Below, piece by piece: positions 19,532 to 49,300 of a DNA stretch of 56,645 bases; position 1 is the first letter of the stretch, and every line of letters begins with the position of its first letter. The stretch is from a virus. The stretch is taken from positions 1 through 56,645 of the IMG/VR virus record IMGVR_UViG_3300024302_000397; one strand, 5' to 3'. The position numbers were made by a program, and so were the translations under genes. The notes under the pieces are model-generated. The model made no database searches. It worked only from the letters and a program-made list of their open reading frames with translations, and was not told the origin of the DNA.

Positions 19532-19789
19532 ATGGAATATTCAGACATAATCTTAACACTGGTAGGAATGGTAACAACAGGGACTATCTTTGTTATCAAG
19601 AATATCATGACTGATATTAAAGAGTTAGAGCATACGATGAATACTTGTCAATCTAACATGCCTAGAGACTATGTACTTAAATCAGACTACAAGACTGAAG
19701 CAAGTGAGATTAAGGCTATGATTATTGAACAGTCTAAGAAGATTGACCAGATATGGAAACACATGAGGATAGGTAATGGCAAGGACTAA
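19532..19789 (+). CDS. Small membrane protein with coiled coil, lysis-cluster candidate
   Basis: This 85-aa protein has an N-terminal membrane helix (IILTLVGMVTTGTIFVI, about residues 6-22) followed by a long charged helix with heptads and a predicted second helix (SEIKAMIIEQSKKIDQIWKH). The design suits a spanin, haemolysin XhlA-like or holin-accessory protein. It is encoded upstream of a holin-like protein and coupled through a small basic protein. Exact role uncertain. Confidence 0.6.
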   Translation: MEYSDIILTLVGMVTTGTIFVIKNIMTDIKELEHTMNTCQSNMPRDYVLKSDYKTEASEIKAMIIEQSKKIDQIWKHMRIGNGKD

Positions 19790-19910
19790 TCAAAAAGTAA
19801 GAGACAGCAAGGGGCGCTACATTAAGTTGACAGTGCTTAACAAAGCTAAGAGCTTCTGTGGAGTAGTAGCAGGTAAGCTAGATAAGTGGCTTAAGAGTAT
19901 AGACAAATGA
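19776..19910 (+). CDS. 44-aa basic protein in the lysis-like cluster
   Basis: This short open frame overlaps both neighbours (14 bases and ATGA) and has GAGGA upstream. The product, starting MARTNQKVRDSKGRYIKLTV, is strongly basic, with lysines through to KLDKWLKSIDK. It might bind membrane or nucleic acid. Overlap on both sides supports expression. Confidence 0.5.
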   Translation: MARTNQKVRDSKGRYIKLTVLNKAKSFCGVVAGKLDKWLKSIDK

Positions 19911-20338
19911 TGGGACTGCTAACAAGTATAGCACCTATATTGGCAGGTTTTGCAATGAAGCTGTTTGCGCTCAATCAACAGGCTAAGCAAGAGCAACACT
20001 CACAGATGCTAGATGCGTTTGCTGCAAGGTCTCAGAATATGCAAGATGCTAGAGATACTGCGAGTAAAGAGTCACCTATGGCAGCACTGAATCGTAGAGT
20101 TATTATCTTTGTTATCTTAGCATTAGTTGTATTCACTCAGATAGCACCTGTAATATGGAATGTAGAAACAGTCGTACCAACGGTAAGAGAAGGCTTTTCA
20201 CTACTAGGTATTCAAGTCACAGCAGATGAAGTTGAGTATGTAACAGTTAAAGGTATGCTCAAATTGAATGAGGTGTTTGAATGGGCTACACTTATCATTG
20301 AGTTTTACTTTGGCGCTCAGTTGGCAAAAGGTAAATGA
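19907..20338 (+). CDS. Probable holin
   Basis: This 143-aa protein has three hydrophobic segments: an N-terminal one (LLTSIAPILAGFAMKLFAL), a strong central one (VIIFVILALVVFTQIAPVIW, about residues 64-83) and a C-terminal one (WATLIIEFYFGAQLAK). A double arginine (NRR) precedes the central helix. This matches three-helix phage holin-type proteins that permeabilise the inner membrane. The ATG overlaps the upstream stop. No endolysin gene is recognised next to it. Confidence 0.55.
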   Translation: MMGLLTSIAPILAGFAMKLFALNQQAKQEQHSQMLDAFAARSQNMQDARDTASKESPMAALNRRVIIFVILALVVFTQIAPVIWNVETVVPTVREGFSLLGIQVTADEVEYVTVKGMLKLNEVFEWATLIIEFYFGAQLAKGK

Positions 20339-20433
20339 TGATTAACTTTGGTACTGAACAAGTACCTGTATGGCGTTATGTTCATCATCTAATGAAATCG
20401 AACAGGTCAAGTAAGCAATGTTCAGAAAAGTAA
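20335..20433 (+). CDS. 32-aa hypothetical microprotein
   Basis: The ATG overlaps the holin stop (ATGATG). The product begins MMINFGTEQVPVWRYVHHLM and ends with a basic, Ser-rich tail (KSNRSSKQCSEK). It is linked head-to-tail by overlaps to the genes on both sides. No function can be assigned. Confidence 0.4.
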   Translation: MMINFGTEQVPVWRYVHHLMKSNRSSKQCSEK

Positions 20434-20501
20434 TGAATGTATATACATCAAGGGTTGTAGAGAATATGATGTTAAGTAATAAAAACAAGGAAGGGAAGTA
20501 A
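20433..20501 (+). CDS. 22-aa hypothetical microprotein
   Basis: A very short open frame, MNVYTSRVVENMMLSNKNKE then GK, fits exactly between TAATG overlaps on both sides. It may simply be a bridge that carries ribosomes to the next gene. Evidence is only the perfect overlap pattern. Confidence 0.3.
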   Translation: MNVYTSRVVENMMLSNKNKEGK

Positions 20502-20650
20502 TGAATAATTCTGAAAGAACTAAATGTGAAATATGGACTAGAGTTATGGGCTACCACAGACCCGTAAGTAGCTTTAATATCGGCAAGAAGGCTGAACACG
20601 CTGAGAGAGTATTCTTTAGGGAGACTACCAAGAATGATAGACAAGATTAG
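20501..20650 (+). CDS. NrdD C-terminal-tail-like mini-protein
   Basis: This 49-aa protein begins MNNSERTKCEIWTRVMGYHR and goes on PVSSFNIGKKAEHAERVFF. The segment RVMGYHRPVSSFNIGKKxEHxERVFF closely resembles the C-terminal part of anaerobic ribonucleotide reductase NrdD, where it follows the zinc-binding cysteines and typically ends GK..EF..R. Here there is a single cysteine, no glycyl-radical motif and no NrdD body. AGGGA precedes the ATG. It may be a decoy or binding partner for host NrdD, or the peptide may have been reused for another purpose. Confidence 0.65.
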   Translation: MNNSERTKCEIWTRVMGYHRPVSSFNIGKKAEHAERVFFRETTKNDRQD

Positions 20651-20813
20651 TAAATGTACAATGATATTTTTAGCAGGAATGGTAACCAGTTTAACTGCTG
20701 CTGCATTCTTTAACCAGTTCATGCAAATGCCACAACAAGCAATGATGATGGGTAGTACAATGATGCAAGGACAAGATAAGCCTTGTAACTGTCAGTGCCC
20801 ACAACGTAACTAA
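20634..20813 (+). CDS. 59-aa exported or membrane-anchored protein with Cys tail
   Basis: This protein begins MIDKISKCTMIFLAGMVTSL with a hydrophobic segment at residues 9-25. It continues with a Met/Gln-rich stretch (MPQQAMMMGSTMMQGQ) and ends CNCQCPQRN. The N-terminus looks like a signal anchor; there is no lipobox. It overlaps the previous gene by 17 bases. It could be part of a spanin or a virion protein. No family recognised. Confidence 0.5.
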   Translation: MIDKISKCTMIFLAGMVTSLTAAAFFNQFMQMPQQAMMMGSTMMQGQDKPCNCQCPQRN

Positions 20814-20832
20814 CCCCACCGGAGATAATATA

Positions 20833-21240
20833 ATGGCTAACCCTACACTACAACAATACATAGAACAACAGAACAACCCTTGGACTAAAGACAACCCAAC
20901 TAATTCTGACTACTTTCAGATGATTACTCAACAAAACATGAGAGACGGTATGCCTCAAGGTGTAGCAGAATCTAATGCTGTACAAGAAATGCAAGTCTAC
21001 ATGCGAGAAGGTATCGACCCTATGGGCCCTATCAACGGCAGAGAAGCTGGATATAATGAATCTCAAGGTGCTAGTCAGGCTAATCAGATGCAACAAGGCG
21101 CACAAGCTCAAGATATTGCAGATAAACAGTCACAAAAGGACATAATAGAAAGTTTAGACCGGTGGCGTACGCAACAAAACTTAGCTCCTGTAGACATGCA
21201 ATCTCTACGCAACTTAGAAAATCCTACATTTAAACGATAG
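20833..21240 (+). CDS. Gln/Asn-rich hypothetical virion protein
   Basis: This 135-aa protein is rich in Gln, Asn and Met (MANPTLQQYIEQQNNPWTKD; GASQANQMQQGAQAQDIADK), with little hydrophobic content, so it is probably extended or helical. CGGAG precedes the ATG. It lies between the lysis-like cluster and large tail genes. Similar Gln-rich proteins occur among podovirus virion proteins, but no family is recognised. Confidence 0.6.
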   Translation: MANPTLQQYIEQQNNPWTKDNPTNSDYFQMITQQNMRDGMPQGVAESNAVQEMQVYMREGIDPMGPINGREAGYNESQGASQANQMQQGAQAQDIADKQSQKDIIESLDRWRTQQNLAPVDMQSLRNLENPTFKR

Positions 21241-24500: not shown

Positions 24501-26540
24501 CTAGCTGACTTAACTGATAGTAAACGCGCTATATTCAGTACTCCTGGGATTCCTACAGATACTGATGCAGGAACTTATGACACGGTCCATATAAATGACC
24601 TGTGGATACCTCCAACAACGTTTACAGATACAACGGTTACCCCAAATATTACCTATGCAGGTGGTGAAATATACAGATGTACTATTGTAACCCCAGCAAT
24701 TGTATTTACTAAAGCCACGAAATACCATGACTTGATTGAAACGTTAAATGAAAACTTAACAGCTACAATCGATGCCAAGATACAGACTTATGCACAAGCT
24801 ACAGTGCCATACGTTAATGTATTGAATGTAGTAACTAATAGTGCCTCATATCTCACACAAGAGAAGCTAGTAGGTGACTTATGGTTATGCTCTACTACAG
24901 CATCCCCGTATACTGCTGGAAAGTATTATGAATACACCAAGACAGCTAATGGAACAACAGCTGCTAACTCAGACTACACATGGACAGTAACTGTGGACAT
25001 AACAGCAGACTTAGCTGTATTAGTTGAGAATAAACGTACTATTTATGGTGGAAGTAGCACCCCTTCAGGAACTACATCACACCCTCTAGAAGTTAATGAC
25101 TTATGGATACCTAGTACAACGGTTGACACCTACCTACAGGGTGAAATGTACACTTGGACTGGTGCTATTTGGGATACAGCATCAAGATACTCTGCAGATA
25201 TCTTAGAGCTAAGCAACCGCACTATTAACGTATTCTACCAACCTGGTAATAAGGATAGTAACGGTGTATATACTACGCCTCCTGGGTCAGCTATATGGGA
25301 CATTACAGGTACACCTGCCACGTGTACTGTGTTAGGAGTAATAGATACAACTATAACTACAGAAGATTTATGTGAAGCGCCTATACAACCTGAAATAAAT
25401 GATATGTGGGCTGTGTTAGATGATGGAGATACTCTATATAAGTACGATGGTACAAGCTGGGTATTATTATCAATAGCCACCTTGGCTAATGTGGATACAC
25501 AGATTGTTGAACAAGTAGGTTACTGTGAACGAACTGTGACCATCACAGGTGCTACAAACAGAACAGGGGAGTATACCACTAAGACTTTGTGTGAGGCAGC
25601 GGCTGTTACAGGTGAAACATTTGCTTGGAGAGACACAGGAGCATTCGCAGCGTTAACAGATGTAATCAGTTCAACAGTAGATAGTAACACTAGTACCATA
25701 CAGATACAAGCCACCTCTATTAACGGTCTAGAGTCAGAGTACTCTGTCAAACTAGATAATAATGGCAATGTAAGTGGTTTTGGGTTATCAAGTGGAGCGC
25801 CAGGTTGTCTAGTTGATGGGGTGTTAGATGCTAGTATTACACAAGCAGCTTGTACAGGCACAGGTAAGGAGTGGGTAACAGACTCCAGTACTTTCCTAGT
25901 AGCAGCAGATACCTTTGCAGTAACAGGTACTGATGAGACCCCTGTCATACCTTTTGTAATTAGAACTGGAGATGTTAACGGTACTTGTTATGTAGATGGT
26001 GTGGTAAACGCAGCAGCAACTCAAGCAGCTTGTGAAGCTATCGCTGGGGGTTCTTGGGCAGCACCAGATACTAGTGTTGTGGGAATACAAGGTAGTCTAG
26101 TATTAGACGGTACGATGAGCGCCACTACAATAAAATCAGGAACTATTACAGGTGACCTCATAGCAGGTACTACTATTACAGGCACTAATATTGATGGTGG
26201 TACTATCACAGGAAATAAAATAAGCGCTACAACTAAAATTGTTGCAGGTACAGGTAATAATGTTGGTGTCCTGTCAGGTGTTCCTGCTTCTTGTTCTGAT
26301 GGCGTTTCAACAACTGAAGCCGCTTGTATTGCAGCGGGTGCTGTTTGGGATGATTATCGCATTTATGCTGGTCATGCTACTCCTGCTTCAGCTCCTTTTA
26401 GAGTTAAGCAAGATGGTACAGTAATTATTGAGAAGAGTACAAGCACTGGAAAGATGGTAATAGAAGGTGATGTGATTAAGGTCTACACTACCGCTGGAGG
26501 AGTGGATACTCTAAGAGTTAAGTTAGGTAACCTAGCATGA
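21534..26540 (+). CDS. Giant lambda gpJ-like tail tip/host-recognition protein
   Basis: This 1668-aa protein starts with a carboxypeptidase-regulatory-like beta domain (residues 1-90), then a fibronectin type III domain (about 118-208). A long middle part consists of NDLWIPP-type units, with a duplicated block of roughly 300 residues (22741-23623 and 24294-25202). The C-terminal part has DUF1983-like sequence: SEYSVKLDNNGNVSGFGLSS followed by FLVAADTFAV, as in lambda host-specificity protein J. The end (SGTITGDLIAGTTITGTNID) is a triple-beta-helix-like stretch. Cys-paired motifs (C-x-DGV-x-C-x-G-x-W) are inserted near the end. It probably contacts the host receptor. A gpJ-type protein is notable in an N4-like podovirus. 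Confidence 0.8.
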   Translation: MAIIVQGTLRFPDNTPIVGASIKFVASKFIQSGVPIGASLIITTNSSGGYNQSILEGSYHIFIKQSGQELYTHLIDAHLADGIGNVAIGDPITLEEIIGTGPGDTPVYEGCSVIPAPTNFTVSGGFTTIILSWSIPAYICHAVTEIWVSTTDEFTNKALLTTTEASVYSHAIGHDATEYYWIRFRNLNGDYGNWYSATSVTGQTSQNPGEVLADLQQDVYNSTLFNALRTNINSSFYQALAPTTKLNGDSLASGDTWIDSDDNQRHVWDTSQVPPAWLAVTDQATVSAIASLVGKQETSDGVVKGFFQTTEPLYAESAFGDIWIDTSQPKPLTFTAIHRFQDADSTNSGSLSWMTTDSQNNALGLTYITAYNADAEITNILTGETDLDNAVIGGTNLVSYISGVVGTGTDNMVRIYSGSDRTTQTGMDTGDLYNETDSNGILTTYQYSGTGWVEVQGASNMAQLGDLTDGKRSIYTTEGVPVDSDAQGDLVISINDLWIPPSDLTTTDGTYAEGQIYRCTSVSPITFVKATKYHDIIDNLNASLTNAIDAKLQTYAADTAPYTDVVNIATDATVYATHQARVNDLWLCTSTAGIYVSGNYYEYTRTANGTNTSNYDYTWEVKADITASMSLLVDNKRTIYGDTTPPAGTTHSLLDNDLWIPPVDIVGPPEYFQGEMYVHDSTATPVWRVASRYSGDIASANSQFANYVTTSAYGTDQVAIQNQLDGNITTWFKDEAPTLSNVPASDWQTIDTANNDDNEKIKHIGDLYYDKVTGYAYRFAHEDNTVDGVDNPIYSWIIITDTDVTLALYNASVAQDTADEKRRIFVAKPNTVTSAYEPGDMWVMDNDADHATFSAGDLLRCETGRAKNLASNTVDAYDDDDWIAASRYTDDTAVDGVVDGTTSLINAKLGDILITEYVNTTVDTATDNMVNVYSGSDRSTQTGMSGGDLFIETDSADVTTTYRYSEVTPATTPITYVWVEIEGTTNVAKLADLTDSKRAIFSTPGIPTDTDAGTYDTVHINDLWIPPTTFTDTTVTPNITYAGGEIYRCTIVTPAIVFTKATKYHDLIETLNENLTATIDAKIQTYAQATVPYVNVLNVVTNSASYLTQEKLVGDLWLCSTTASPYTAGKYYEYTKTANGTTAANSDYTWTVTVDITADLAVLVENKRTIYGGSSTPSGTTSHPLEVNDLWIPSTTVDTYLQGEMYTWTGAIWDTASRYSADILELSNRTINVFYQPGNKDSNGVYTTPPGSAIWDITGTPATCTVLGVIDTTITTEDLCEAPIQPEINDMWAVLDDGDTLYKYDGTSWVLLSIATLANVDTQIVEQVGYCERTVTITGATNRTGEYTTKTLCEAAAVTGETFAWRDTGAFAALTDVISSTVDSNTSTIQIQATSINGLESEYSVKLDNNGNVSGFGLSSGAPGCLVDGVLDASITQAACTGTGKEWVTDSSTFLVAADTFAVTGTDETPVIPFVIRTGDVNGTCYVDGVVNAAATQAACEAIAGGSWAAPDTSVVGIQGSLVLDGTMSATTIKSGTITGDLIAGTTITGTNIDGGTITGNKISATTKIVAGTGNNVGVLSGVPASCSDGVSTTEAACIAAGAVWDDYRIYAGHATPASAPFRVKQDGTVIIEKSTSTGKMVIEGDVIKVYTTAGGVDTLRVKLGNLA
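22741..25202 (+). repeat. Internal duplication in the giant tail protein
   Basis: Copy 1 spans about 22741-23623 and copy 2 about 24294-25202, roughly 1.55-1.58 kb apart. Aligned landmarks are TDNMVRIYSGSDRTTQTGM / TDNMVNVYSGSDRSTQTGM, ATKYHDIIDNLNASL / ATKYHDLIETLNENL, NDLWLCTSTAGIYVSG / GDLWLCSTTASPYTAG and NKRTIYGDTTPPAGTT / NKRTIYGGSSTPSGTT. The copies have diverged, so the duplication is old. Limits are approximate. Confidence 0.8.
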
Positions 26541-27001
26541 GTTATGGTTTAGAAATCTTTAAGAGTGGTGATGACTCCTGTGTAGGCCCGACATCTAATG
26601 TGTGTGTAAAAGACGGTGTGCACTTAACTGCGCACACTAATGCAGTATCTTGTATTAACACTGGTGCAGGTGATTGGGTAGCCCCATTCAACACAGCATC
26701 TTGTGCGTTTGTGGGGGGCACTTGGTCAAGCCCTTTAGTTTACTCGTCTAATGATGTTACATGGAATCAGGTAGATAGTTTTGTAGCTAGCGCTGGGGTC
26801 ACGGTTAGTAAAAACTATTCTTCATTAACTGCTGAAGGGGTAACTGAGTTTATAACAGTACAATTTATGGTACATACCTTGCAACCTGACACTGCAGCAA
26901 AGACACACACAGTAGCAGTGTCGGGTACTAGTGTTACAGCTACTCCCGCAGGAACACAACACACGTATAGTGACACTTATGTGGTGGTGTTAGGAAGATG
27001 A
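26537..27001 (+). CDS. Tail-tip-associated protein with Cys motif
   Basis: This 154-aa protein begins MSYGLEIFKSGDDSC. It carries two cysteine motifs (VCVKDGVHLT...SCINTGAGDWVAP and SCAFVGGTWSSP) of the type seen at the end of the giant gene just upstream, then a beta-rich region (residues 75-154). Its ATG overlaps the upstream stop (ATGA). The MSYG start is shared with the next gene, pointing to a small family of tail-surface proteins. Confidence 0.65.
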   Translation: MSYGLEIFKSGDDSCVGPTSNVCVKDGVHLTAHTNAVSCINTGAGDWVAPFNTASCAFVGGTWSSPLVYSSNDVTWNQVDSFVASAGVTVSKNYSSLTAEGVTEFITVQFMVHTLQPDTAAKTHTVAVSGTSVTATPAGTQHTYSDTYVVVLGR

Positions 27002-27918
27002 GTTACGGTTTCAGTGCAAAAAATAATAATAACCAAGTACTTATAAGCAGTGAGATGCAGAACTACCATTTGCATTCTAAACTCACAACTATAGACAGTG
27101 TACTGGGATATCATGATTCATATGGCGGTATGTGGAATTACCGCTTCATAGTAACCATCGGGTCAGACAATCCTCCTATGGTATTTATAGAGCCTCAGTG
27201 TGAACAGATACAGGCTATGCTCGGTATGGATGTAATACAGGATTTGGGTGGTGGCAACAAAAAGTGGGCGATTGATGTAGCTGTTGCAGGAACAACTTCA
27301 AGTTCTGCTGCGCACCCACACTTACATATTTTTACTAAACCGGGTGCTATCACCAACCCTTCTGGGCAGGACTGGGGTTTGCAGGTATTTAATAGCAATA
27401 ATGATGTGGCGTTTGATAGTAGGAAAGCCCCCTTAGTAATTTTAGGGGGTGGTACAATAACCCCCCCGTCCACTATTATCACAAGTTCACAGAACTTAAA
27501 TCCAAATCCTAACCACTGGGTTGAGAAAAGTTTAAATGGTTTATCTTCTTCAGATATTATGTTCTGCGCACCTTCACTGGCCCAGGCAGAACGTGAATAC
27601 ACAACAACACAACACTCGGATTCTTGTACAGGTTTAGACGTATGTGGCGCATGTCTTGGTTGGGAAGAAGTGTGGGACCGATCAGATACTTGGTGGGCGT
27701 TTTATCGAAACGGCTTTCAAGTTAAAGATAATAAATTTAAATCAGGGTGGTTAACCTTTAATGTCGGACATCTCTTCCATGAATCAGAATCGGATAGTTT
27801 CATAGGTATTAGGTTCGATGGTGGTAGTGGTAGTGGTGGACAACAGGCTATTAACAACGGGCAAATAAATATGAACAACAACGCGTATTTGTTCTCTAAA
27901 CCGAGCCTATACTCATGA
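26998..27918 (+). CDS. Tail-surface protein of the MSYGF family
   Basis: This 306-aa protein begins MSYGFSAKNNNNQVLISSEM, an opening seen in tail-associated proteins of marine-type phages (DUF6453-like; family name uncertain). The middle is beta-rich with a Gly/Pro stretch, followed by SCTGLDVCGACLGWEEVWD and a Gly/Ser-rich part near the end. It overlaps both neighbours by a few bases. Probably part of the distal tail or a decoration of the fibre. Confidence 0.6.
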   Translation: MSYGFSAKNNNNQVLISSEMQNYHLHSKLTTIDSVLGYHDSYGGMWNYRFIVTIGSDNPPMVFIEPQCEQIQAMLGMDVIQDLGGGNKKWAIDVAVAGTTSSSAAHPHLHIFTKPGAITNPSGQDWGLQVFNSNNDVAFDSRKAPLVILGGGTITPPSTIITSSQNLNPNPNHWVEKSLNGLSSSDIMFCAPSLAQAEREYTTTQHSDSCTGLDVCGACLGWEEVWDRSDTWWAFYRNGFQVKDNKFKSGWLTFNVGHLFHESESDSFIGIRFDGGSGSGGQQAINNGQINMNNNAYLFSKPSLYS

Positions 27919-28100
27919 TTGATTTAATACAGACTACCTTTACAATTAAAGATAATATTGCTACAGTAAGTGTAGTTAATATTGTGCAATTAGACGCTAC
28001 CAATAAATTTAAAACTACTAATACACATTTAGTAGAAATACCTGAAGGGGTGAAGCCAACACGTGAGTACATACTAGGATACCTATATGCCAACAAATAG
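27915..28100 (+). CDS. Small hypothetical protein
   Basis: This 61-aa protein begins MIDLIQTTFTIKDNIATVSV and is beta-rich at first, then helical (KPTREYILGYLYANK). It overlaps the tail protein gene (ATGA) and the next gene by 14 bases. It is at the join between the tail genes and the lipid cassette. No family recognised. Confidence 0.6.
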   Translation: MIDLIQTTFTIKDNIATVSVVNIVQLDATNKFKTTNTHLVEIPEGVKPTREYILGYLYANK

Positions 28101-28671
28101 AGAACTAATTGAACGGATGATGCAAGATTATGAGAGTAAAACTTTACTTTACCCCCCATTCACATCGTCTAAACTAAGACGAGGACATAAGGGCTTCCTA
28201 GGTGCCTTATTTTGTGCTGTAGGGCTGTTTACTAATCATCACAGGATAAGACGTAGTTCTGCGGATAAGTTTTTTAGAGAAGGTATGAAAGCGTACATTG
28301 ATGGGTACAGGCGCGTGTTACGGGGTGAGAATAAGCCTTGGGTAGTCAGTAGTAGTTTTGACTCTGAATATGTGGAAAACATTACAGGCGGTGTTTTTAA
28401 AATAGCCCGTATTGCAGAATCGGCCACATTGCCAGTATTAGTAGTAGTAGACTTCACGCCAGACAGCAAAGTGCTCAGTTATTACACTGAAGAGACTGAG
28501 TCTATCTTTAGGTTTGACAGTTTATTTGGCTTGTACGACCCAGCTGAGGATATGTTGTATTTTTTTGTTGAACCTTATAATTTTGAAATCCCCGCCAATG
28601 ACCCCACTATTAATAAGATATCACTATATGAGCTAATTCTTACTGACAAAGGTAAAAGTTATGCAGAGTAA
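28087..28671 (+). CDS. Hypothetical protein upstream of the acyl carrier protein
   Basis: This 194-aa protein is unrecognised. Residues 20-60 contain a short hydrophobic patch (GFLGALFCAVGLFTN) beside basic residues (HHRIRRSS). The C-terminal 100 residues alternate strands and short helices (LPVLVVVDFTPDSKVLSYYT). It overlaps both neighbours, so it may belong to the same unit as the lipid-type genes 250 bases downstream. No acyltransferase or endolysin signature is visible. Confidence 0.6.
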   Translation: MPTNRELIERMMQDYESKTLLYPPFTSSKLRRGHKGFLGALFCAVGLFTNHHRIRRSSADKFFREGMKAYIDGYRRVLRGENKPWVVSSSFDSEYVENITGGVFKIARIAESATLPVLVVVDFTPDSKVLSYYTEETESIFRFDSLFGLYDPAEDMLYFFVEPYNFEIPANDPTINKISLYELILTDKGKSYAE

Positions 28672-28909
28672 AGACCCTCACGGTGAATTCAGCTTTGCTG
28701 GTGTATCGATATACCCACTAACCTTTACCGATTTTTGGGTAAACCCCACAAATGGGGAAACTAAAAGGTCTGAAGAGATTAACTGGATAAATATTAATTG
28801 TAGACCTATTGACTTACAAAGATTTGTTATAATTGATGGGGAATTACAGGATTATCGTGATGTAGTAAACATTAGACAAGTAAACGCAATACCGTTATTT
28901 CACACCTAG
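28661..28909 (+). CDS. Small hypothetical protein
   Basis: This 82-aa protein begins MQSKDPHGEFSFAGVSIYPL and is aromatic- and Asp-rich, probably a small beta domain (FTDFWVNPTNGETK; RFVIIDGELQDYRDV). It overlaps the preceding gene by 11 bases and ends 10 bases before the acyl carrier protein gene, so it is probably co-transcribed with it. No family recognised. Confidence 0.6.
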   Translation: MQSKDPHGEFSFAGVSIYPLTFTDFWVNPTNGETKRSEEINWININCRPIDLQRFVIIDGELQDYRDVVNIRQVNAIPLFHT

Positions 28910-28919
28910 GGAGGGTACG

Positions 28920-29183
28920 ATGACATTAGAGGAAACACTAAACATATTAAATAACGCAGTCACAGCATCTGTAATGGATGCCACTGAGTATACTCTGTGT
29001 ACCAAAAGCACAGATACATTAAAAGACATCGGGTTGGATAGTTTAGACTGGAGTATTGTATTAATTTACATAGAAGATGAAGTATTATTGAGCGAAGAAG
29101 TCATTACTGAATTAGGTGAAATAATAAATACTGGAGGGACTGTTCAAGAAATGATGGAGTTCTTCAATAGTCATGGATTATAG
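28920..29183 (+). CDS. Acyl carrier protein
   Basis: This 87-aa acidic protein has the acyl carrier fold. The key motif is DIGLDSLDWSIVLIYIEDE, with Ser41 in the DSL site that receives 4'-phosphopantetheine from a host transferase; the last helix region (GTVQEMMEFFNSHGL) also fits. Length matches bacterial AcpP (about 78 aa) plus a small extension. It would carry acyl chains as thioesters for the synthase encoded two genes downstream. GGAGGGTACG precedes the ATG at 28920, the best ribosome binding site in this cluster. Its stop overlaps the GTG of the membrane protein gene (TAGTG). Confidence 0.88.
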   Translation: MTLEETLNILNNAVTASVMDATEYTLCTKSTDTLKDIGLDSLDWSIVLIYIEDEVLLSEEVITELGEIINTGGTVQEMMEFFNSHGL

Positions 29184-29626
29184 TGTTCTTATTAGTTAAG
29201 ACACTACATGTATTTTCAATAGCGATGTTCCTAGGTAATATGTTAGTTACAAATACCTGGAAAGGTAGGAGCAAGCATTGCACTGTAGCAGTACGCACTT
29301 ACACCAATAAACTAACTAGACGTACAGATTCTATCTTCGTAGAGTTCTATGGTCTATTGTCTCTGGCTTCTGGACTACTACTAGTGTATTTGCACCCGGT
29401 GTATACCTACACAACTACATTCATTATGTGGGCGCTTATACTTTGGACGTTATCCCTAGTGTTCTGGGGGGTATCAATTCCGTATCTGCGTAAACAGCAC
29501 ATTGATTTAGTTATGAACAAAGGCGAGAAGTACAACTATTATGATCGTAGATGGTGGTGGTGGGGACTAGCTGCAACTATCGCGGATGTAGCTATTTTGC
29601 CTTTAATGATATGGAAACCCTTATGA
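29183..29626 (+). CDS. DUF2269-like integral membrane protein
   Basis: This 147-aa protein has about four membrane helices: near residues 3-22 (LVKTLHVFSIAMFLGNML), 53-70 (LLSLASGLLLVYLHPV), 74-96 (TTTFIMWALILWTLSLVFWG) and 124-145 (WWGLAATIADVAILPLMIWK). The N-terminal LLVKTLHV and the ending in PLMIWKP are typical of DUF2269 proteins, whose function is unknown. It begins with GTG at 29183, overlapping the acyl carrier stop, and its stop overlaps the synthase ATG. The coupling suggests it works with the two enzymes, perhaps as their membrane platform or as exporter or acceptor of the product. Confidence 0.72.
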   Translation: MFLLVKTLHVFSIAMFLGNMLVTNTWKGRSKHCTVAVRTYTNKLTRRTDSIFVEFYGLLSLASGLLLVYLHPVYTYTTTFIMWALILWTLSLVFWGVSIPYLRKQHIDLVMNKGEKYNYYDRRWWWWGLAATIADVAILPLMIWKPL

Positions 29627-30690
29627 ATATTTCGTTAATAGACTCAGTGTCTACACAAGAACTGACAGCCTTACATTCCGTTAGCTACCCGTCTAACGCC
29701 CATGCTGTTGTTACGACAGCACACCCTAAGATTCAATCAGGATACGCAATTATTGCGCACCTATTAATTGATCAACTTGTAGCCAGGAATAAAGAGGTAC
29801 TACAATCAGAAGCTTCTACAGGCAAATCGGGGTTAATATTAGCAAGTGGAAATACCTACTGGTCAGGTTATGATTTAAATCGGAAGCGCCCTGCTAATTT
29901 TCCAGTACTTAAACCTCTAGCCTTGGCAACAACTAATATATACGCAGGCAGAGTTGCTCAACATATTGGTTATACAGATTATGTCTCTACGGATAGCACA
30001 TCATGTGTATGCGCATATAACGCCACTTTTTTAGCTAAAGCGTTATTAGATTCTAATACGTTAGATAGGGTGTTAATAATCGCTGTAGAGGATGCCACAA
30101 GCGGTGATACTATTGAGTTCTTCAGTAAGTATGGTGGTAATATCAGTTTAGCTGATGAAGAAGCTGGAAAGTTACCTAGTGCGTTTGATGGCACTAACAC
30201 AGGCTTTAGGGTGGGCAATGGTGCAGGGATGTTCTTGTTAGATAACAAAGACAATGGTATTGCACAAATTGACCAAGTATCTATGGCTGCTGAGAAGTGG
30301 AGTAGCCCTATAGGGCAAGACCCTGCAGGGACAGGTTATCTTAAAGCGCTATCACGTATTGATACAAAAGGTGTGCGTATCATTAAAACACATGGTACAG
30401 GTACCCCAAGTAATAATATTGCTGAGAAGGTAGCTATTGAGAGTACCTTTGACGATTTCATAGCTACATCTTATAAGCCCCTGATAGGTCATACTATGGG
30501 CGCTAACGGGGCTATCGAACTAGACTTATTAGTCAAGGACTTGCATAGGGGTGTGCTCACAGGTATACACAACCGTACAGTAAAAGACACACGATTCATC
30601 TCTGAAGATACTAAGATAAAAGATAAAACAGCTATATGTTTAGGTAGTAGTATGGGGAATGGTTACGCAGCGTTAAAAGTATCTATTTAA
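29623..30690 (+). CDS. Beta-ketoacyl-ACP synthase (thiolase-fold condensing enzyme)
   Basis: This 355-aa protein belongs to the KAS I/II (FabB/FabF) superfamily. It joins an acyl chain to a malonyl-ACP-derived unit. The nucleophile region is STDSTSCVCAYNATFLAK with C128 as predicted nucleophile (C130 nearby). The first histidine lies in KTHGTGTPSNN (H257) and the second in KPLIGHTMGANGAIE (K285, H290). The end, GSSMGNGYAALKV, fits the C-terminal glycine loop. All catalytic residues are present, although it is about 55 residues shorter than FabF. The start chosen is ATG 29623, overlapping the upstream stop (ATGA); ATG 29611 is possible. Its partner is presumably the acyl carrier protein at 28920. 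No ketoreductase, dehydratase or acyltransferase is seen nearby, so the host must supply other steps. Confidence 0.88.
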   Translation: MNISLIDSVSTQELTALHSVSYPSNAHAVVTTAHPKIQSGYAIIAHLLIDQLVARNKEVLQSEASTGKSGLILASGNTYWSGYDLNRKRPANFPVLKPLALATTNIYAGRVAQHIGYTDYVSTDSTSCVCAYNATFLAKALLDSNTLDRVLIIAVEDATSGDTIEFFSKYGGNISLADEEAGKLPSAFDGTNTGFRVGNGAGMFLLDNKDNGIAQIDQVSMAAEKWSSPIGQDPAGTGYLKALSRIDTKGVRIIKTHGTGTPSNNIAEKVAIESTFDDFIATSYKPLIGHTMGANGAIELDLLVKDLHRGVLTGIHNRTVKDTRFISEDTKIKDKTAICLGSSMGNGYAALKVSI

Positions 30691-30770: not shown

Positions 30771-32942
30771 ATGAAGAATAATATATCAGATTTAGATATT
30801 GATGCGACTGAACTAGATACTTTAGTTGATTGGGAAAACCCACCTAAAATTGAAGACCTGAAGCAAGACTTAACAGAAGCACAGTCTGCTCATTCAGATC
30901 ATATCATCGATGTCGAGAACTGGTTAGACGCTCTAAACGGCAAACAGAAGCTTAGCACTAAACCTGGTCGTTCTAAGATTGTTCCTAAACTTATTCGTAA
31001 GCAAGCTGAGTGGCGTTACGCTGCATTAAGTGAACCTTTCCTATCTACCGATGACTTGTTCAATACAGCACCGGCTACCTTCGAAGATAAGAAGGCTGCT
31101 GAGCAGAATGGTCAAGTACTTAACTACCAAATTAACTGCAAGATTGATAAGACTAAGTTTATCGATGAATACGTACGTACATGTGTGGATGAAGGTACAT
31201 CTATTATTAAGTTAGGTTGGGACTACAAAGAGGAGACTGTTGAAGTTGAAGTACCTGACTTTGATTTCCAACCTACACAAGAAGCAAACCAAATACACCA
31301 ACAGTTACATGCAATGATGCAAGAAGACCCTGAGAGATTTCAACAAGAAATCCCACCAGAGATGCAACAAGCACATGAAATGTCTATGCAAGGTGGTACA
31401 GCAGTTATGCCTGTACAGGTCGGGTCTCATACTGAGGAACAAGTTAAGGTTATTAAGAACCAGCCTACTATTGAAGTGTGTAACTACGCAAACGTAATAG
31501 TTGACCCTACATGTGAAGGTGACATAGATACCGCTGAGTTTATAATCTATAGCTTTGAGACATCAATGTCTCAGCTAAAGAAAGATGGTAGATATAAGAA
31601 CCTAGACGCAGTCAGCTTAGATAGTGGTAGTGTGCTGTCAACTCCAGATCACTCTGTTGATGATGACTCTAGCTTTACTTTCAAGGACAAACCACGTAAG
31701 AAGATTGTAGGATATGAATACTGGGGATTCTGGGATATCAACGGTACAGGTGAAGTAGAACCTTTCGTAGCTACCTGGGTAGGTGACACTCTGATTAGAT
31801 TAGAAGAGAATCCGTTCCCTGACAAGAAGTTACCATTTGTAATCGTACAGTACTTACCTAAGCGTAAGGCCGTGTATGGTGAACCTGATGGGTTACTGAT
31901 TGAAGACAACCAGAAGATTATCGGAGCTGTAACTAGAGGTATGATTGATGTTATCGGTCGTAGTGCTAACGGACAGATGGGTACACGTAAGGATGCATTA
32001 GACGTTTCTAACTACCGTAAGTTTGAACGTGGTGAAGACTTTAAGTTCAACTCTAACGTAGACCCTAGACAAGCTTTCCATATGGAGACTTACCCAGAGA
32101 TTCCTGGTAGTGCACTAAATATGCTTACGTTACAAAATAACGAAGCTGAGTCGCTTACAGGAGTTAAAGCATTTAGTTCAGGTATCACAGGACAAGCATT
32201 AGGTACAACTGCTACAGGTATTAGGTCAGCACTAGATGCTACATCTAAACGTGAGTTAGGTATCCTTAGACGTCTAGCTAATGGTATTAACCAGATGGGG
32301 CGTAAGATTATATCTATGAACGCTGAGTTCTTAGGTGATGAAGAAATCATCAGAGTAACTAATGAAGAGTTTGTAGCTATCAACCGTGAAGACTTAGGTG
32401 GTATGTATGACATTAAACTAAACATATCTACAGCAGAAGCTGACACTGAGAAAGCTCAGGAGTTATCATTCATGCTTCAGACTATGGGTAACAACATGCC
32501 TCCAGAGATGTCACAGATGGTACTAGCAGATATTGCTAAGTTACGTAAAATGCCTGAGTTGTCTAAGCGTATTCAAGAATACAAGCCACAACCTGACCCT
32601 ATGGCTCAACAGATGAAGGAACTTGAAATGCAGCTGTTACAAGCACAGATTGCTAATGAGCAAGCTAAGGCACAAGAGAACCAGGTTGATGTAGGTCTGA
32701 AGCAAGCTAAGACACAGACAGAACAAGCTAAAGCTAGAGGACTACATAGTACCTCTGACTTGAATGACCTAGACTTTGTTAATAAAGAATCAGGTGTACC
32801 TGATGCAAACAAAGAGGAGCAGATGAAGTTAGCTCATGGTCAAGAGATGCAAAAGAAAGAGTTTGATAGATTATCAAATTTAGACAGTAAGGTGATAGAT
32901 GGTATGATGCAGGGAGCTAATACTAACTATCCGGGACTTTAA
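30771..32942 (+). CDS. Portal protein (N4 gp59-like)
   Basis: This 723-aa protein is the probable dodecameric portal through which DNA enters and leaves the head. It has the N-terminal acidic start, a TKPGRSKIVPKLIRKQAEWR segment (near residue 62), VDEGTSIIKLGWDY, a central VCNYANVIVDPTCEGDID, and LTGVKAFSSGITGQALGTTA (near residue 463). A long C-terminal coiled coil rich in Gln and Lys follows (QQMKELEMQLLQAQIANEQA). Length is close to N4 gp59 (about 763 aa). It is directly upstream of scaffold-like and capsid genes, as in N4. Confidence 0.85.
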   Translation: MKNNISDLDIDATELDTLVDWENPPKIEDLKQDLTEAQSAHSDHIIDVENWLDALNGKQKLSTKPGRSKIVPKLIRKQAEWRYAALSEPFLSTDDLFNTAPATFEDKKAAEQNGQVLNYQINCKIDKTKFIDEYVRTCVDEGTSIIKLGWDYKEETVEVEVPDFDFQPTQEANQIHQQLHAMMQEDPERFQQEIPPEMQQAHEMSMQGGTAVMPVQVGSHTEEQVKVIKNQPTIEVCNYANVIVDPTCEGDIDTAEFIIYSFETSMSQLKKDGRYKNLDAVSLDSGSVLSTPDHSVDDDSSFTFKDKPRKKIVGYEYWGFWDINGTGEVEPFVATWVGDTLIRLEENPFPDKKLPFVIVQYLPKRKAVYGEPDGLLIEDNQKIIGAVTRGMIDVIGRSANGQMGTRKDALDVSNYRKFERGEDFKFNSNVDPRQAFHMETYPEIPGSALNMLTLQNNEAESLTGVKAFSSGITGQALGTTATGIRSALDATSKRELGILRRLANGINQMGRKIISMNAEFLGDEEIIRVTNEEFVAINREDLGGMYDIKLNISTAEADTEKAQELSFMLQTMGNNMPPEMSQMVLADIAKLRKMPELSKRIQEYKPQPDPMAQQMKELEMQLLQAQIANEQAKAQENQVDVGLKQAKTQTEQAKARGLHSTSDLNDLDFVNKESGVPDANKEEQMKLAHGQEMQKKEFDRLSNLDSKVIDGMMQGANTNYPGL

Positions 32943-45400: not shown

Positions 45401-46309
45401 AAGGTAGTAGCACTCTCTAAGAAAGTATCAGAAGCTACTATAAATAGGGAAGCTGATGTAGAGGTAACTGCAGCTAAATCACAACTAACTCTTAATGAGA
45501 GGTTGCTAGGTAAAGTAGATACATTTAATAAAAAATCTCCACAAGAGACTGTAGACCCTATTAAGAAACCAGAAGAAGTAGTAAAGGTACAGGCTGAAGC
45601 CAAGCCCACTACTCCTGAAGCGCCTAAACAGACGCAGTCTGTGGAGGGCGCTGCTAAATACACAAAAGCAACTAATCAAATAACTAAATTAGTTAAGAGA
45701 GCGGAGAAGCTTGATACCCAAGTATCTGACTTAAACAGTAAAACAGAAGAGAATAGTTTATTCCCTGGCACTCTAGAGATACCCGTAGCTGAAGCCAAAG
45801 CAAAGATAAATACTCAACGTACTAAAATACGTGATAACTTCAATAGGATTGCTACTAGATTTGATTTAGATATAAAAGACGCTGACATCAAGACTGACCA
45901 GCAAGAAGAGATGCTGTATTCATTATTAGATGGAGCAGTAACACTAGGCAGCAAGGAAGTAGAGGATAAGATTAGAGCTATTAGCTCAGACTATGCAAAT
46001 CATAAGACTGAAGTTGTTGTTGAAGAAGCGGTTGATGTTGAGGCGCTACAGAGATTAGATGAGTTACAGAATAAGCCTAATACTGAACAAGCTAAACCTA
46101 AAGCTAAAGAAGAAGTCAAGGTAGAAAAAACTCCTGAGAAGACTCCACAAGAAACCATTAGTCCTGAGATAAGTACTGTACAATTACTTGAATCCGGAGC
46201 GGCCTATGAACAGGGAGGCGTAGCTAAAGTATACGCTGTAGGCCATTACAGTAAAGCTCAGTGGGTCACAATTGCAAAAAAACTAGGAGTATTACCAGAT
46301 GTCTGCTAA
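42413..46309 (+). CDS. Large internal protein, possible separated N-terminal part of the virion RNA polymerase
   Basis: This 1298-aa protein has a soluble N-terminal 400 residues, a Gly/Ala-rich hydrophobic stretch (LAESAALMIEITAGLPGQAV near residue 422; ALGTTFGLGAAGLISEGSSG near 520), and long coiled coils from about residue 600 on. The N-terminal 1000 residues of N4's 3500-aa virion RNA polymerase have the same kind of layout, and the next gene begins close to where the N4 catalytic domain begins. The two genes overlap by 11 bases in different frames. I infer that the large N4 protein is encoded here as two. It should be ejected with the polymerase. No catalytic motif is recognised. Confidence 0.65.
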   Translation: MGNYSVSSDIFSDYDDLYFKDLKKKKLDAVLERKNAAIQSLKGVHDADTFVYEDPITGNTSSTRAGAPNSTLDTAETFKGFAKPYAEGRNGVRDTHARALASDLGMHPSQITDDMLNQRALESKAFAQDLLMQDQPNPEDPQTQVTVHGEDKYNRPITESVNPYTGININRALNTPEHNLNFYSKYNKIPDINYAEKGDDKIKPFTVIGNEDGTYDLTVRGGLKYPNIPNPEIERKEFIPHIIDPNTGMVPQLLGEYRVSDFVGKALSGNLESTLGKKGENETVGGRYDNFSRKGLNEQELKDWIEAFNPFVEYEGYTGYIPKEDFKDTTSTGAEFLAKAGWSVADEIQHYNTKLQTFLESDEGKKASMKTRAQEADKLWKNSLVVFSDPEENFNRAQAQRMDTLDYIENMYSERKEESFGKLAESAALMIEITAGLPGQAVATWSTHDRIVEEFEKHAGRAPTSLEDGQIWGLATVSVAGEKFALKTVLGKNPFVNKALADFTANFPAFGRALGTTFGLGAAGLISEGSSGVISDTAETIGAHLAEGYVFPTSTQARESFWMEAMPGSSIGTISGAAKSTTTSSDTAALNGLIADLGRGAPTVELTIDEETKLNKKIDALDDKLRSSSISDAHRVKLMSKRDELTKQRLEGKPNKDALSEEGRKDLESSIQTLQNKINDKAASPKGLESAIKKDTKAVNKLNKNIERLEALEQTDEVVQLIQEARQEVELLETNIKDSKASLGILNVDDTAKIKPVEGDSLELLKTIPGKLENSDELSIEELQSLIAQYERAATDVMQRFVKGETELKEAQQESFRRVNEYMELLEKRVDLTEAKKTIEKSSEKDQYVYSLDHTDEGSAQTLNEILAQGTLTPIETEVVQAKQEVIEAKQGLSNNAKNIEDVNEDITGKGSKDFISFNQHLDNVVSGTNALAAQSGLEQFAKHMQGKAETLRAAYDKFLQDGNIAEVEYRGVTYEINNSTETLLEYVEREAAYGQKVVALSKKVSEATINREADVEVTAAKSQLTLNERLLGKVDTFNKKSPQETVDPIKKPEEVVKVQAEAKPTTPEAPKQTQSVEGAAKYTKATNQITKLVKRAEKLDTQVSDLNSKTEENSLFPGTLEIPVAEAKAKINTQRTKIRDNFNRIATRFDLDIKDADIKTDQQEEMLYSLLDGAVTLGSKEVEDKIRAISSDYANHKTEVVVEEAVDVEALQRLDELQNKPNTEQAKPKAKEEVKVEKTPEKTPQETISPEISTVQLLESGAAYEQGGVAKVYAVGHYSKAQWVTIAKKLGVLPDVC

Positions 46310-49300
46310 ATGTACTAAGGAACTGATTGTAGAGAGTATTACTAATGCAATAAACACACAACCACAGACAGAAACTGCAAAGGTATTTAAGTCTACTGTC
46401 AATAACTTCGTAGGGTACATAGCAGAGCTTGGTATTAATAACTCTCAAGATTTAAATGTGCATATACCTAAAGCTGACGTGTTTGCCCCTTACCTACATA
46501 AGATAGGGGAAGTGCTAAATGAAGGCAATAAATTATTCTTAGTTAAAAATAGAGACACAAAGTCTTCTACTTTCCTAGAGCCATCTACCTACAAGAATTC
46601 TGATGAGTTAGTAAGTATTTTTATGGAAGCTGGGTTAACCCCAGAGCTATCAACTCAACTAGTAAAACTATTCAAGGCATTTACAACTAAAGTAAATCAA
46701 GAATTGAAAAGCAGTAATACTGTCTATGAAAATGACGTGTTACCCCTACTATATGGAGCTAACAAAATAGAAGGACGTGATACTACGTATCACTTACCTG
46801 CGCCTGTATTGTTCAGTGCCTCTACTTCATTACTAAGATGGTTTGCTACAGATGGTGCGCGTACATTAAACACTTTCACAGACACACAAATACAACTAAT
46901 AGTTGGAGCTGAACGTACTTCTGATATCTTAGATGAGACATTAACTGCTTTCCGTAATTTAGATCACGGTGGAATGTTGAGGGGTGAGGCTGCAAGGTCT
47001 TTAGGCTCATTGATATTTGACTCACTAAATATTAAAAGCAACTTAGCTACATCATCAACAATATTAGATGACATTCTGGCACATCAATTAGGAGCTTTAG
47101 CTCTAGAGATTGGCGTTAAGATGGGACTTATTAAGTCTGCTGAAGTAGTCTATAAGGTCAATCAAAATGGGAAGTTAGTCACTAAGAAGTTTGCACATTA
47201 TTACATTACACAAAAAACTATTGATGTTAATAATATAGATATAAAAAAGATTACAGACCATTCAAAACACTTAGACAGTTTCTTTGGGGTTAACCAGTCA
47301 TTTAATGCACCGTCTGCTACCCCTTTACCTAACGTTTCAAAGAATGTTAGAGGCTCGTTAGGCTCAGTTAGCCCACAAGCACACCAAGTAATCAATAAAT
47401 TAGTTAATACTGAGTGGACAGTCAATAGTGCTTATCATTTATATATGATAGGCAGTGACACTGCTAACGCACCTCTACAAGCTAAAGCAGTAAAGCTTAG
47501 AAAAGTATTAGCTGGTGTAACCTTTTTAAATCCTAGTGATGCTCTTAACGTGCATGTTGATTTAGAAGAAGGTATTAAAGCTAAAGATAGACAACTATTA
47601 GACCAAATTAAAGTAATTAAGAAGTATTCAGATAATAATCTAATAAATAGCTTCTACTTACAGTGGAAATTTATGGCTCAGCATCGTATGATGATTGAGG
47701 GTGAGCTAGACCCTATGTCTGCTAAGAATGTAGCACGCTTTTTACTTAAGCCTGCAAAATCTAAGAGTATTATTGTAGACCCTGCCACTAAGGACTCTAA
47801 AGCTGTTATCTCCTTTAAGGTTGCTGTAGCTCAGCATTTTGATTTAAGTGTTGATAAAACAGACGTACAAGGTTCTCTAGAGCTATTTGACAGTGTATTC
47901 AGTGATATGGAGAATGAGCAGTCTGCTTTAAGTAGAGCAGTTCAATCTGTTATTCAACTCAGTATTAAGCCTAATGAAGTTACGGAAGAGAACTACTTAG
48001 ATGCTATGCTAGAGTTACACACTAAGTACCCTGGAGCTAACACTGCGTTAATTATGGCAGTGAATGCTTTAGCACAATACCAATCAGCTCTAGAAGAAGA
48101 TACTACGTTTACCACAGACATCATCGCTGAAGCTGATGCTGTTACTAGTGGTTTTGGAATTGGTTTAATGCTGTTCCCAAGTAACAACATGGACGACATG
48201 ATGAGGGAGCTCAATCGTGTAGGTATGATTTTTGAGGGACAAGTACCTTATTCTGAACAAGTAAAGAATGCGAATGGTGCAACTCCTGATGGGTATCTAA
48301 ATTTTGCTAATGCTTTATTTGATAAGTTTGAGAATTTACCAAGCTACTTAGATACTAATGGTGAACATGTAGACCCTAAGGTGGCTGAGAGTCGATTTAA
48401 GGCGTTTAATACTATATTTGCTCCACTAGTTACTAATAGACGTAATGCTGGCAAGCCACCATTTATGGTACTAAACTATGAAGGTGGCGCTGCTAAGGTA
48501 GCTAAAGAATTATCTGTTAGCTTAGTGGATTCTTTATTTGAATACATCACAGAAGCTCAAGGAAGATATACGAATGGTAGCCCAGAAGTAAAAGCAGAGA
48601 TATACAAAGAGCTTGCTACTATGTTTAAATCTATGAGAGTGCTTACGAAGAGTAAAGCAGGTAAAGAATATCTACCTGGAGGACTTACATCAGGGGTATT
48701 AAAAACTCTATTAGCTACGAATGAATTACATAGATATAGCTTTAATGAGCCTCTGTATAGAGGGTCTCCTATTAAATACAGAGACTATTTAATCTCTAAA
48801 CTAGGACAGGCGTTAACTCCTGCCATTAAAGTAGCTGCTGCTGAGACGATAGTGAACTCTGAGATAAAGTCTGACTTTATTAAAGCAGGAGAGCTTCAAT
48901 ACTTTATTTTCAAAGTCAAGTATAACAATCTAGTTAAAGAAGTAGCTGGACGCTCAGAAGGTAAGTTATTCCCATCACAGCGTAAAGAATTAGCTAGGGA
49001 GTTAATTGATTTCTATCCTAGAATTGCACTTAAACACCAAGACGGTACAGAGTCATTTATTGATTTAGTTAAGTCGACTCAGATACAGCACTCTACTAAA
49101 TTTGAGCTAAAATTAAACAGTGGAAATGTTAGTACTAGAATGCTGACGTACTCGTTTGCTCCTCCAGGAGTTTCTACAGTAGTACGCTCTATTCAAGGTA
49201 CAGATGCTGTGAAATTGCAAGATTCAATTAGTATTCCTAATGTTGAGAATACAGAAATTCCTTTGTTACCTCTGCATGATGCTGTTATGGAAGTGATAGG

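Follow-up and report, generated by a model that had tools for sequence, protein, structure and literature searches.

What use might a phage have for a condensing enzyme with an acyl carrier of its own, encoded among the genes for its virion? The question is raised by an IMG/VR virus record of 56,645 bases, classed as linear (hereinafter the window, meaning the entire stretch analysed). An earlier note on it had recognised three coupled genes for an acyl carrier protein (ACP), a DUF2269-like membrane protein and a condensing enzyme (ketosynthase, KS), and had proposed that the phage makes or diverts an acyl chain late in infection.

The cassette and its phage

On re-reading, the three open reading frames at 28920-30690, their TAGTG and ATGA overlaps and the residues named for their products were all confirmed, as was their place inside the late structural arm, where a Schitoviridae-type portal gene flanks them (Table 1). 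A strong GGGAGGG ribosome-binding site precedes the ACP gene; the GTG start of the DUF2269 gene has one base in common with the ACP stop (TAGTG) and the KS start overlaps the DUF2269 stop (ATGA), such that the DUF2269 gene belongs to the same translational unit as the other two. The KS start was taken as 29623, which fits the ATGA overlap and yields the 355 aa protein and the numbering C128/H257/H290; a longer reading frame from 29551 was set aside as an upstream extension of the KS. The DUF2269 assignment is borne out by the score against PF10027 (45.1 bits versus a gathering cut-off of 28, E 1.5e-11) and by the four hydrophobic segments, which mark the product as a multi-pass membrane protein.

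Table 1. The cassette, its flanking genes and their positions in the window.
Feature	Position	Strand	Remarks
Orphan 194 aa protein (P0005)	28087-28671	+	Directly upstream; 47% identical protein in the same place in L006
Orphan 82 aa protein	28661-28909	+	Directly upstream; 88 aa counterpart in the same place in L006
Probable ribosome-binding region for the cassette	28906-28919	+	GGGAGGGTACG, 5' of the ATG at 28920; read from sequence
ACP (87 aa)	28920-29183	+	D40-S41-L42-D43; Ser41 in DSLD is the predicted phosphopantetheine site
DUF2269 integral membrane protein (147 aa)	29183-29626	+	PF10027; four hydrophobic segments; GTG start
KS, KAS I/II type (355 aa)	29623-30690	+	C128, H257, K285, H290, E299
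Schitoviridae-type portal	30771-32942	+	At most 56% identical to Schitoviridae portals; fixes the late-arm location

This portal, together with the matches in the window to the phrog_1357 major head protein and the phrog_2166 N4-like RNA polymerase, places the phage, as judged from its gene content, in the Schitoviridae (N4-like phages). A 2707 aa reading frame at 46299-54422 occupies, by position alone, the expected place of the giant virion RNA polymerase. The window probably falls short of a full genome, because a record of 54,351 bases with an identical cassette (G001, locus L005) carries a DNA polymerase A gene that is absent from it. Elsewhere in the window, the 141 aa protein encoded at 8373-8798 matches a RepL-like winged helix (PF05732, E 9.5e-8), which seems unusual for an N4-like phage, and the interval from tail fibre to cassette holds two proteins beginning MSYG (26537-27918), the second of which matches PHROG families 4062, 3370 and 6061, all of unknown function. 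Small membrane proteins encoded at 19532-19789, 19907-20338 and 20634-20813 (in the region 19532-21240) may be lysis genes, and neither PHROG nor Pfam revealed an endolysin among the window reading frames searched. Given these other small membrane proteins, a role for the DUF2269 protein as the phage holin is not favoured.

The genes just upstream of the cassette had been suggested as possible further parts of it. Those at 28087-28909 are conserved in only one other distinct phage, the N4-like sister L006, and the membership of their products in the cassette is uncertain. The 194 aa protein was also considered as a general third partner and dropped, as no homologues of it were found beyond L006.

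A ketosynthase with a conserved catalytic apparatus

Both Pfam KS halves score above cut-off in the window KS, and its C128, H257 and H290 align with C163, H303 and H340 of Escherichia coli FabF, in agreement with the earlier identification of a condensing enzyme from these residues. With K285 and E299, it keeps the active-site cysteine, two histidines, lysine and glutamate of FabF, and all five are invariant across the 62 non-redundant KS sequences. The presence of a thiolase fold and the alignment of C128, on which the earlier reading had been staked, were both checked: the AF2 model (mean pLDDT 87.7) displays the thiolase (KAS) fold with C128 aligned, and superposes on FabF and type II polyketide KSs with Z-scores of 38-39 and an rmsd of 2.4-2.8 over 330-342 residues. 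Its best structural match is the ketosynthase chain of AntDE (6smp_H, Z 39.1), which is tied with FabF. The GFGGTN gating loop of elongating KSs is absent, the corresponding segment reading MGNxYxA in 62/62 KS sequences, and substrate handling must hence differ from that of FabF. Moreover, against the curated FabF equivalog TIGR03150 the window KS scores 68.9 bits, far short of the cut-off of 493.75. With the gating loop missing, we name the protein a KS of the KAS I/II type rather than FabF. The alignments and the predicted structure support its assignment as a condensing enzyme whose catalytic residues are intact and which is supplied with a carrier by the phage itself.

The carrier protein

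Taken alone, the window ACP matched no Pfam model and matched the NCBIfam and PHROG ACP models weakly (E 0.01-0.11, none over cut-off). A profile of its family searched against the PDB has ACPs as all of its best 60 matches (best E 6e-5), and the family was aligned with E. coli AcpP. The phosphopantetheine serine of the DSL motif is invariant in the 54 non-redundant relatives. The assignment as an ACP, with Ser41 the predicted site of modification, is supported by the DSL motif and by family-profile homology, though not by a single-sequence Pfam match, and the window protein is at best a divergent member of the ACPs.

In AcpP numbering, D35, S36 and D38 are kept in all 54 phage ACPs and the position of Glu41 is hydrophobic in every one of them, while that of Glu47 is lost except in two N4-like proteins, the window ACP included. 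In E. coli AcpP, D35 and E47 touch FabG and FabI, and D35 and D38 touch FabB (PMC7966745). Because the position of Glu47, through which AcpP contacts FabG and FabI, is preserved in the window ACP, host enzymes could plausibly carry out reduction in the N4-like variant, whose carrier might be the phage ACP likeliest to be used by host reductases; with this position lost in most other phage ACPs, such use may not hold across the family. The retention of D35 and D38 alongside a hydrophobic residue at Glu41 fits a phage carrier that could still be activated and loaded, but would be tuned to its own KS.

A widespread viral pair

Among 50,697 phage records, tblastn with the window KS recovered one full relative, MW202545.1, with the same ACP-KS order and 36% KS identity, and searches with the window ACP and DUF2269 protein gave no match. 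The 13 other KS matches were discarded as likely host contamination, being partial and in unannotated records named for Listeria, Enterococcus and gut phages. A profile built from the window KS and the MW202545.1 relative found 420 relatives among IMG/VR contigs, and with a second KS profile at least 564 IMG/VR stretches were seen to encode KS relatives. Across 84,980 prokaryote genomes, searched with KS patterns tuned to the viral family that would miss more distant cellular relatives, there was a single KS relative, on a 37.6 kb contig (L089, JAGYJQ010000016.1) binned with a Balneolaceae MAG. This contig has phage-like tail genes, and ACP, KS and GNAT genes in the same order as the phage relatives, such that it is either mis-binned or a hint of the host. 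No KS relatives were found on plasmids, and no cultured phage carrying ACP-KS turned up in our searches.

The ACP gene lies directly upstream of the KS gene, with stop and start codons mostly overlapping, in 128 of the 128 sampled non-redundant loci, a count that comprises those with enough upstream sequence among 130 non-redundant KS loci (the best-scoring part of the family and not a random draw) and includes the N4-like pair, where DUF2269 separates the two. Twelve seemingly ACP-less loci were artefacts of reading-frame starts. The median omega between close, non-independent pairs is 0.050 for the KS (510 pairs) and 0.083 for the ACP (523 pairs), which points to strong purifying selection on each. 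The recurrence of the gene order in an unrelated phage, the unbroken count of loci and the low omega values together argue that the pairing is not due to chance. The DUF2269 gene accompanies it in only two distinct phages, namely the window phage and L006. Thus, the non-random co-occurrence anticipated for the whole set holds for the ACP and KS, which form the constant core, but not for DUF2269, and the three genes are not a general unit. On these sequence comparisons, ACP-KS is a large, old viral gene family represented in hundreds of aquatic phage contigs.

Three genomic settings and a GNAT-fold neighbour

The pair occurs in three settings. In the N4-like setting, ACP, DUF2269 and KS precede the portal; it is seen in the window phage, to which contigs L003 and L005 also belong (their proteins being identical), and in L006, whose KS is 68% and DUF2269 protein 52% identical to those of the window (see Table 1 for the upstream orphans). 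In the late arm of another podovirus group, with a P22-type tail hub, the order is hub, small gene, ACP, KS, a 145 aa protein and a large internal-type protein. In a derived lineage (L116, L132, L137, L151 and L154 (record G018)), ACP-KS is found in the early/replication region, flanked by a helicase-like gene on one side and small early genes on the other. The N4-like pair branches off deeply and separately in the KS tree, and the loci of the early region are nested inside the late-arm group, so that the ACP-KS pair must have moved. With this lineage carrying the pair in the early region, the purely late role envisaged in the earlier note is not general, and a role at the envelope late in infection cannot apply to all relatives. 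In G018, about 18 kb separates ACP-KS from the gene for the 145 aa protein, which has kept its late-arm place.

The 145 aa family (L008:6320-6751 and 31 homologues, alignment A7) comes from the late arm of aquatic podoviruses and has no Pfam or PHROG name. It is predicted with high confidence to adopt the GNAT fold (pLDDT 94.5; against RimI, Z 11.8 and an rmsd of 2.5 over 120 residues), and in the large podovirus group its gene directly follows that of the KS (93 of 123 loci). The R/QxxGxG CoA motif is absent from its beta4-alpha3 loop (NADTARNF) in the aligned sequences, and the 32 sequences share one invariant aspartate but no invariant histidine. An obligate third membership of this gene was ruled out, since the window has no homologue and the family also turns up in contigs, among them one of 50 kb, in which no KS or ACP was matched; we regard the GNAT-fold protein as a lead and not as a defined part of the module. 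An annotated GNAT acetyltransferase of Roseobacter phage CRP-901 (L091:8957-9391) occupies the same slot in the tail-hub group, with no KS annotated beside it.

Potential functions of the pair

With so tightly coupled a pair of genes for a carrier and the enzyme that elongates chains on it, phages with ACP-KS probably produce or redirect an acyl chain for themselves while they infect. As neither a FabG-type SDR nor AcpS was found in 19 phage records, many of them fragments, host enzymes are most likely needed both for activation of the carrier and for completion of the chain. We posit that host AcpS would put phosphopantetheine on Ser41 of the ACP, and that malonyl and acyl groups would be loaded by host FabD or from the host acyl pool. 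An acyl group on C128 of the phage KS might then be condensed with malonyl on the phage ACP via H257, H290 and K285, and host reductases would complete the chain, unless it remains a beta-ketoacyl group. With a carrier separate from host AcpP, the product could be kept apart from the bulk of lipid synthesis in the host. In the N4-like variant, the co-translated DUF2269 protein would probably act late in infection to place or use the product at the inner membrane, resulting in envelope remodelling; the acyl product there probably acts at the membrane, a destination that we infer. The reading that we tentatively prefer is accordingly that of a private condensing unit which, in the N4-like variant, feeds a membrane-directed product, its activity, product and destination being ones that we infer. 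Somewhat less probable is a wider scheme in which a viral family of private carrier-KS pairs, retained over long evolutionary spans by several tailed-phage lineages, would make a phage-specific acyl or beta-ketoacyl product separate from bulk lipid synthesis of the host, bound for the membrane in the DUF2269 variant or to a virion protein in the GNAT-fold variant, constituting a dedicated lipidation or lipid-signal pathway.

The altered carrier could also be read as a drain or decoy, with the pair tying up malonyl or acyl groups, or decarboxylating malonyl-ACP, on a carrier unusable by the host, whose lipid synthesis would be throttled or rerouted with no special product. The changes at Glu41 (54/54) and at Glu47 (nearly all the non-N4 proteins) should weaken contact with host reductases (PMC7966745), the phage records yielded no downstream enzyme, and an early-region pair, as in one lineage, is expected of host takeover. 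Still, we think this unlikely, since a full catalytic pentad with an omega of 0.05 would be needless unless decarboxylation itself is the purpose, the Glu47 position is retained in the window ACP, and both the DUF2269 coupling and the late location of most loci would be left unexplained. Earlier reports describe fabF and acpP of phages as auxiliary metabolic genes (PMC8224337, PMC11705849), and the pair might likewise boost host fatty-acid elongation to supply lipids. However, a booster KS would use the abundant host AcpP, yet a divergent private ACP is always present; the low FabF identity, the lost GFGGTN loop and a family that looks viral, its one relative in the prokaryote genomes being on a contig with phage-like genes, likewise render this improbable.

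A different destination for the chain is suggested by the acylation of lysines in RTX toxins and CdiA, in which GNAT-fold enzymes without CoA-binding elements take acyl-ACP (PMC8339906, PMC8510554): the pair might build acyl-ACP from which an acyltransferase moves the acyl group to an ejection or tail protein, aiding membrane entry. Consistent with this, the frequent GNAT-fold neighbour of the KS lacks the CoA motif, as in that chemical precedent, precedes a large internal-type protein, and stays in the late arm of G018 though ACP-KS moved early. We nevertheless hold virion-protein acylation to be quite unlikely, given a window without a GNAT homologue, a GNAT-fold protein which, unlike the RTX acyltransferases, has no invariant histidine, the occurrence of its family apart from the pair, and the annotated GNAT acetyltransferase in the same slot of CRP-901, with no KS annotated next to it. 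The late-arm place of the genes, between tail and portal or between tail hub and internal-protein genes, might instead mean that the KS and ACP serve as components of the virion or of a scaffold and no longer catalyse, but the invariance of all the catalytic residues and of the ACP serine, and the presence of the pair in the replication region of one lineage, make such an exaptation highly improbable.

Comparison with known systems

Phage fatty-acid genes have so far been treated as occasional captured metabolic genes, whereas ACP-KS appears to be an old viral pair, which one lineage relocated within its genome as a unit. If active, it would represent a module for acyl chains in which the virus encodes even the carrier, offering a defined and testable route to lipid change or protein lipidation. 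We found no description of the ACP-KS family in the literature searched, subscription papers lying outside its scope, and acyl genes go unmentioned in the reviews of N4-like phages searched. Two annotated proteins belong to the same viral KS family, namely UOF78413.1 of MW202545.1 (Caudoviricetes sp., Manatee Spring), annotated as 3-oxoacyl-ACP synthase (36% identity), and UniProt A0A6J7X0R1, labelled FabB, from an uncultured Caudovirales phage (33% identity). In MW202545.1 the ACP partner is annotated merely as a hypothetical protein and no DUF2269 gene adjoins.

Among published phage genes, fabF has been noted in pelagimyophage genomes (PMC7029224), fabG-acpP-fabF in three Rhodobacteraceae (roseobacter) prophages (PMC8224337) and fabF/fabG/fabZ in virome reads (PMC10653327). 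The latter two reports resemble the present case in their phage-borne acpP and fabF, but concern host-like gene order or reads with fabG, in contrast to the divergent, translationally coupled viral family without fabG described here. No tyrosine integrase was matched in 15 records of ACP-KS phages. Stand-alone ACPs are known from Alteromonas Schitoviridae phage R22Y (PP212876, PMC11705849) and Erythrobacter phage R6L (PMC5463345). While R22Y is likewise an N4-like phage with an ACP, the latter (L088:23774-24070) lies about 10 kb from the portal and differs in sequence, with no KS in the first 50 kb; it was hence rejected as a sister of the window ACP. The RTX toxin-activating and CdiC acyltransferases share with the GNAT-fold neighbour a GNAT fold without CoA elements and, in concept, an acyl-ACP donor. 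As the phage protein has no invariant histidine to form their His/Asp dyad and is absent from the window, it is not filed as a member.

Like E. coli FabF, the phage KS has a thiolase fold with the Cys-His-His, lysine and glutamate residues and an ACP gene directly upstream, as in acpP-fabF; it differs in being about 17-20% identical in structural alignments, in its length (355 versus 413 aa), in the MGNxYxA segment in place of GFGGTN, in falling far under the NCBIfam FabF cut-off, and in that no FabG or AcpS was found with it. The minimal type II polyketide synthases (KS-alpha, chain length factor and ACP, as for actinorhodin and AntDEF) differ in turn in that the phage set is without tailoring enzymes and the window has one KS match with no second, Cys-less chain length factor adjoining it; what the phage pair has in common with them is the dedication of a private ACP to a private KS.
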